Shown piece after piece: positions 30,883-31,262 of a stretch of DNA of 64,000 nucleotides. The position numbers were made by a program, and so were the translations under genes. Position 1 is the first letter of the stretch, and every line of letters begins with the position of its first letter. The stretch is from Azotosporobacter soli. Its GTDB lineage: Bacteria > Bacillota > Negativicutes > SG130. Location: positions 1 through 64,000 of the forward strand of contig NZ_JAUAOA010000013.1 in NCBI RefSeq assembly GCF_030542965.1, given 5' to 3'. The notes under the pieces are model-generated. The model did no database searches, had not been told where the DNA came from, and saw only the letters and a program-made list of their open reading frames with translations.

Positions 30883-31107
30883 GGCCGTCTTGTTTTGGCA
30901 AGGCGGCCGAGACTGTCGACAAAACGAAATCAAGTGGGACGTTTTTACACGAAGCGTCGAAGAAGGGAAGGCAGGAAGAGGTTTTAAATTCTTCTTCCTT
31001 TCTTTCCACCGAGCCGATACGATCGGCCCGCTTCGCTTCTTCGTGCTATCGGATGTTGTTTTTAAAATTGTCTTCACTCTGGGCCGTCTTGCTCTGGCAA
31101 GGCGGCC
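30883..31107. repeat. Dispersed structured element, copy 3, between duplicated terminators
   Basis: The core (30909-31081) matches copies at 158-336 and 1571-1740. It has termini gagactgtcgacaa and ttgtcttcactctg (imperfect inverted repeats), an outer acgaag ... cttcgt stem, a purine/pyrimidine stem, and the hairpin gccgat-acg-atcggc. On both sides stands the same hairpin, ggccgtcttgttttggcaag... (30883-30908) and ggccgtcttgctctggcaag... (31082-31107), 24 of 26 bases identical. Only the right one is followed by a T tract. It fills most of the 387-base gap after tmk; nothing else is recognised there. Confidence 0.85.
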
Positions 31108-31262
31108 TTTTTCTTTGCGGCAATTAGTAAAGTATTTAAAGCCGAGCAAGCGTGCGTGCGCAGGAGGATTTAACGAATAAGCGGCGAATTTGCCAAAATA
31201 GAATGCTTAAAAGAGCGCGTAAGCGCGAACGATAAAATTCAGGATAGGGCAGAGGTGGCAGA

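Follow-up and report, generated by a model that had tools for sequence, protein, structure and literature searches.

In all likelihood, a family of MITEs in the genome of Azotosporobacter soli is mobilised by an IS1182-type transposase that targets terminator hairpins and duplicates each hairpin whole, and it is the hairpin that sets the length of the duplication. DDE transposases normally keep their two active sites a set distance apart, which gives target duplications of near-fixed length. At the sites tested here the repeats span 17-41 bp and match the target hairpin in length. This is comparative evidence for a stem-loop-duplicating pathway that had earlier been drawn only as a possibility, and it could account for the extreme spread of direct-repeat lengths in the IS1182 family. 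It also shows a transposon spreading through terminators and leaving a hairpin on each side. For annotators, near-identical paired terminators may signal an old insertion.

The window locus

The window is the whole stretch of DNA analysed, 64,000 nucleotides. The features that matter here are these:

1 to 127, + strand: right end of the 1,544-bp IS1182-family element; the left part of this IS terminates contig 20
128 to 153, no strand assigned: 26-bp hairpin, exact duplication made by the IS; the second copy adjoins the IS left end on contig 20
158 to 333, + strand: MITE copy, 176 bp
340 to 362, + strand: third copy of the hairpin at 128-153, 83% identical to the left copy, T run present
1570 to 1740, + strand: MITE copy, 171 bp, flanked by a 16-bp non-palindromic repeat (1554-1569 / 1741-1756, 14/16)
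30883 to 30908, no strand assigned: left copy of the duplicated terminator hairpin, 26 bp, 7 bases past the stop codon of the upstream gene
30909 to 31081, + strand: MITE copy, 173 bp
30909 to 30922, + strand: left terminal repeat, GAGACTGTCGACAA
30947 to 31046, + strand: conserved internal branched stem of 37 pairs, 97% paired over 24 copies, no excess covariation
31068 to 31081, - strand: right terminal repeat (TTGTCTTCACTCTG on the + strand)
31082 to 31107, + strand: right hairpin copy, 24/26 identical to the left; a T run starts at 31108

A first-pass annotation, made from the sequence of the window, had described a core with imperfect terminal repeats standing between two 26-bp hairpins (24/26), and all of these are present; the T tract lies beside the right hairpin copy only (31082-31107). 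The terminator at the start of the window has been used by two insertions, the IS and the MITE at 158. The hairpin at 128-153 doubles as the left hairpin copy of this MITE, so that here too the hairpin is duplicated (130-152 / 340-362, 83%). Since the duplication made by the IS is exact and that made by the MITE is inexact, the MITE insertion at 158 is probably the older of the two.

An apparently lineage-specific MITE family

Three loci had been said to share the core. BLASTN exceeds that figure by far: there are about 40 copies in the same 3.78-Mb genome. We examined 43, of which 26 have two recognisable ends. Most are 171-208 bp long, and the longer copies carry about 30 additional bases close to the right end. 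The ends match each other at 11 of 14 terminal positions. Several copies are truncated, and in two short variants (L048 near 1506 and L049; G000:C1:407705 and C15:28096) the branched interior is partly gone and a simpler long hairpin is left. The family is thus short, multi-copy and devoid of coding capacity of its own, with terminal inverted repeats and target duplications (19/26), as a MITE should be.

Where do the copies lie? By a reading-frame heuristic, 13 of 30 sites fall between convergent genes, 16 between tandem genes and 1 between divergent genes; the heuristic is a simple one and is wrong for the window locus at least. Sites between convergent or tandem genes fit terminators as targets.

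The search of the genome and of related Negativicutes that the first-pass annotation had recommended gave a split answer, the roughly 40 copies at home being set against 0 in 120 related genomes, the nearest of which share only the class. The exact core pattern occurs on no contig of GTDB R220, a collection from which records very close to the window's own genome are possibly excluded. Absent from both sets, the MITE looks lineage-specific, apparently a fresh member of an already known sort of element. No empty site of the MITE itself came to light in these sets, which offer no close relatives.

Duplicated hairpins at the MITE flanks

The flanks of the 26 complete copies were aligned copy by copy, the sequence running up to the element on the left against the sequence leading away from it on the right. 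All 650 left-right pairs taken from different loci served as the null. True pairs scored above the null's 99th percentile (score 9) in 19 of 26 cases and above its maximum (12) in 14. The repeats found in this way are nearly all palindromic, and their sequence differs from locus to locus: AACCCCCGGCATTCGCCGGGGGTA stands on each side at L012 (24/24), AAGCCTGCGGC faces GCAGGCTT at L010 (27/29) and the hairpin CAAGTGCGC faces GCGCACTTG at L035 (28/33). Two observations count against our explanation. A clear repeat is missing from 7 of the 26 complete copies, and the locus at 1571 is an exception, with its short non-palindromic repeat of 16 bp.

The first-pass view of a common core amid flanks that are particular to each locus holds. 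That annotation had left a second option, that the element itself carries hairpin ends resembling its target. Hairpins do bound each copy, as this option would have it. They vary by locus, however, and match only their same-locus partner, so that the option fails; moreover, the same hairpin stands alone at a relative's empty site (G542, described below). Ruled out by the mismatched-pair null, hairpin ends carried by the element retain a vanishingly small probability in our judgement.

The interior of the element

Whichever strand is folded, the interior forms a branched stem (z -3.7 on the + strand, -3.2 on the - strand), and its pairing is kept in 97% of cells over 24 copies. Among the non-Watson-Crick cells, G.U is commoner than A.C on the + strand, the strand on which the structure was chosen. 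All three features suit a reading in which the core is retained for its function as a regulatory structured RNA or an element of 3' UTRs, and in which the hairpin pairs arose separately, for instance through gene conversion or the usefulness of both terminators. Compensatory change does not bear this reading out: it is seen in 3 of 37 pairs, a figure that 117 of 500 shuffles reach, so that there is no excess over controls. Rfam gives no match at the gathering threshold in the window and none at E<=1 in the locus. The lack of copies in the 120 related genomes, the truncated copies and an IS with the same ends that makes the same duplications, exactly, likewise speak against an RNA. On the Rfam result and the shuffle range the structured RNA was rejected as a candidate, and we rate this reading as very improbable. 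The remark in the first-pass annotation that pairing is kept while loops differ is true as a description; it is not evidence of selection on RNA, and covariation of the internal stems is not supported.

An IS1182 element with the same ends and the same target

What moves the MITE? Sites that match its terminal repeat lie about 1.5 kb from the ends of several contigs, and these proved to belong to a 1,544-bp insertion sequence. Its ends are CAGACTGTAGACAA (left) and TTGTCGACGGTCTG; like other IS1182 elements it has terminal inverted repeats, and its direct repeats vary in length. Its product of 485 amino acids is an IS1182-family transposase, scoring 428.9 bits against a cut-off of 270 with the NCBIfam family model NF033551. 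The next-best transposase model, IS5_4, stays under its own cut-off, and IS1182 is the sole model above cut-off. In Pfam, PF13751, PF05598 and PF01609 exceed their gathering scores, giving at the profile level a DDE domain with an N-terminal DUF772. A search for a solved structure with sequence similarity to the transposase found none, nor was a second full IS1182 type found in the genome.

Copies of the IS break the assembly, so that left and right junctions fall on separate contigs. Five left junctions match five right junctions one to one through exact palindromic repeats of 33, 24, 41, 26 and 33 bp (AAATGGACCAGCAATTAATTTGCTGGTCCATTT, AGCAGTCTGCATAGGCAGGCTGCT, AAAACAGGGATTGTCTTATATAAAAAGACAATCCCTGTTTT, GAGCGAGCGGCGCATGCCGCTCGCTT and AGGAAAACAGACGGCAATGCCGTCTGTTTTCCT, respectively). 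Each of the five (24-41 bp) is an entire hairpin. The fourth, GAGCGAGCGGCGCATGCCGCTCGCTT, links contig 20 with the start of the window.

A single terminal search motif picks up the ends of both elements. MITE and IS have like ends and the same target habit, both being flanked by duplicated hairpins. Their resemblance is confined to about 14 bp of the ends, so that this very IS is a candidate for the mobiliser. Judged from these ends and targets, the MITE is most likely mobilised in trans by an IS1182-family transposase of the same genome. The first-pass annotation had recognised no known family. That stands for the MITE itself, which is unmatched in Rfam and in the other genomes searched; it does not stand for the ends and target habit, which match those of the IS1182 element.

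Two further features of the IS deserve mention. It has a near-perfect hairpin of its own, CTCCCGCTAATGATATGATAAAATCATTAGCGGGAG, at L043:613-652 (IS positions 20-59), upstream of the transposase start at 658; the opposite-strand self-match of this hairpin is 90%. One possible role is to protect the transposase gene from transcription reading out of the gene whose terminator the IS has invaded. At G000:C30:21066-21241, two degenerate IS fragments, from positions 75-162 and 1475-1535 (78-84% identical), adjoin. This is an old, internally deleted IS copy, an intermediate of the type from which MITEs can arise.

Close relatives in other genomes

Whole-hairpin duplication is wider than the window shows. 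We surveyed IS1182 relatives with a transposase identity of at least 38% in the host's class and phylum and on plasmids, locating duplications at IS flanks by a search anchored on the terminal motif. Among 50 loci, incomplete ones and multiple copies per genome included, 32 have duplications of 17-35 bp, 29 of them exact. The duplicated arms are self-complementary at 298 of 328 positions. Hosts with hairpin duplication include Cetobacterium somerae, Enterococcus faecium, Bacillus pumilus, Staphylococcus agnetis, Klebsiella pneumoniae, Vibrio penaeicida and Rhizobium binae.

Exact duplications of 19-35 bp flank 28 of the 29 IS1182 copies examined in a complete Bacillota genome, G335, and the axis of the palindrome coincides with the centre of the repeat, to the base, in 26 of the 28. 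The genome is a single contig of 2.28 Mb with at least 29 near-identical, near-complete IS1182 copies, and it offers a natural laboratory for this transposon. Its congener G542 has many copies too and supplies an empty site, which concerns the IS relative and not the MITE: the L122 locus is there without the IS and holds a single, slightly diverged hairpin, and the matches to the two L122 flanks overlap by about 30 bases. The proposal of the first-pass annotation that the element targets and duplicates terminator hairpins is thus borne out at three levels, by the MITE at 19 of 26 copies, by exact duplications around its IS partner and the relatives, and by an empty site with one hairpin in a relative's congener.

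Some loci look different. At L079, L081, L095, L104, L143, L176 and L183 there is no common repeat, and the apparent hairpins at the two ends differ. These mismatched hairpins probably reflect recombination between copies, and such traces would probably imply rearranged chromosomes. At L106 (G367:C44) the hairpin copies differ in the loop only, GA on the left vs TC on the right: the loop is the same but inverted, which would fit a flip of one copy via a hairpin intermediate.

Distant relatives duplicate the loop

When transposase identity falls to about 33% or less, only a loop of 4-5 bp is duplicated. The repeat is 4 bp at L114, L134, L136 and L147 and 5 bp at L084; in all five the insertion has parted the two arms of a palindrome, and the repeat lies at its centre or loop, as in cgtcggctttc-GGCG-gaaagccgacg at L147. 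This is loop duplication, pathway c of the IS1272 model. ISPsp5 (L145) is like the loop duplicators, with a weaker stem, and ISCfr1 (L146) has a 4-bp repeat where a clear stem is absent.

In a tree of the transposases, the copies that duplicate the stem-loop lie within one clade of 27 rows (support 98/96). This clade contains 0 loop-duplicating copies, and its remaining nine rows are without a detected repeat. Long branches make the deep joins uncertain.

Geometry of the target and a proposed mechanism

Pooling the 28 sites of G335 with the 5 of this genome gives 33 IS sites, at which self-complementarity is 95% over the eight outermost positions of the repeat. A frame of equal length displaced by 1-6 bases gives 16-31%. 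The repeat edge usually lies one to three A-T pairs beyond the G+C stem, and the first pair is A...T in 27 of 33. The cuts in the target lie symmetrically on either side of the hairpin axis; a transposase attacking an extruded cruciform at its two feet would produce this pattern.

We propose the following sequence of events. The transposase would recognise a DNA palindrome, in practice usually an intrinsic terminator, which is probably extruded as a cruciform. The opposed hairpins of the cruciform have two 5' feet, which would meet at the four-way junction, and it is to these that the 3' ends of the element would be joined. Gap repair or fill-in would duplicate the entire hairpin, one per side. 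The feet are adjacent in the cruciform and one hairpin-length apart on linear DNA; repair therefore would copy the hairpin, and the length of the duplication would be the length of the hairpin.

The main rival is an enzyme bound to duplex DNA. Here the same pair of MITE and IS1182 element would act with no cruciform, the transposase reading dyad symmetry in the duplex, or following a terminator-bound guide, and cutting at the edges of the palindrome. The A-T pairs outside the G+C stem suit a preference for sequence or flexibility, as does A-T pairing that often runs on past the edge. The spread of 17-41 bp, however, is hard to square with two active sites held at a fixed distance on duplex DNA: sites so far apart can be joined only if the target draws them together, as a cruciform does. 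Duplication of the loop alone in distant relatives also points to a hairpin. We consider the duplex mechanism unlikely, albeit deserving of attention, and prefer the cruciform.

Extending the cruciform mechanism to the family, we find it fairly probable that one IS1182 clade joins at the cruciform feet, distant members at the loop and IS1272 at opposite feet, the host hairpin setting the length. If this is true, foot, loop and opposite-foot joining would together explain direct repeats of 2-60 bp in the family, and this would be a mode of integration whose target is read by DNA shape. Cruciform-directed integration becomes testable by a simple laboratory assay.

Comparison with known systems

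Long target duplications are found elsewhere. In the IS1202/IS481 group they reach 24-29 bp (PMC10045372). The elements described here have a different transposase family, with no IS481/IS1202-type transposase, and the IS1202/IS481 lengths form discrete classes about a helical turn apart that are not tied to hairpins. The IS1182 transposase and the spread of lengths rule out a fixed-length long duplication of the IS1202 kind.

The IS of this genome shares with the IS1182 family (NF033551) its transposase, its ends and its variable direct repeats. For that family, PMC7335449, citing ISfinder, gives direct repeats of 2-60 bp; that paper offers no reason for the variable length, which here is that of the hairpin (17-41 bp) or, in distant members, of the loop (4-5 bp). 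MITEs of 160-169 bp linked to ISMac2, an IS1182 element, occur in Methanosarcina acetivorans (excerpts of PMC3852290). They too are small and non-autonomous; unlike the MITE described here, they have repeats of 0-4 bp, and those excerpts describe no hairpin targeting.

The closest parallels are IS1272, TnSha1 and TnSha2 of staphylococci, which by the papers' account belong to the same IS1182 transposase family (PMC4923244, PMC5678879). Furi et al. (2016, PMC4923244) demonstrated that TnSha1/IS1272 uses hairpins as insertion sites, among them several confirmed terminators, and that part of the hairpin is lost. Joining at the cruciform feet with duplication of the whole stem-loop was drawn independently as the hypothetical 'pathway b' for IS1272 (PMC5678879). 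In the openly licensed literature, with ISfinder outside our scope, we found no paper showing such a duplication, and priority is not certain. Like IS1272, TnSha1 and TnSha2, which take any stem-loop as a target, often a confirmed terminator, the elements studied here target stem-loops with no sequence consensus. They differ in the outcome: IS1272 deletes its target stem-loop, entirely or in part, without creating a duplication, whereas here the whole stem-loop is kept and duplicated, with a hairpin on both sides of the insertion and a single one at the relative's empty site. What the MITE and its IS1182 clade share is a variant form of stem-loop targeting, earlier a proposal on paper and here documented in many genomes.
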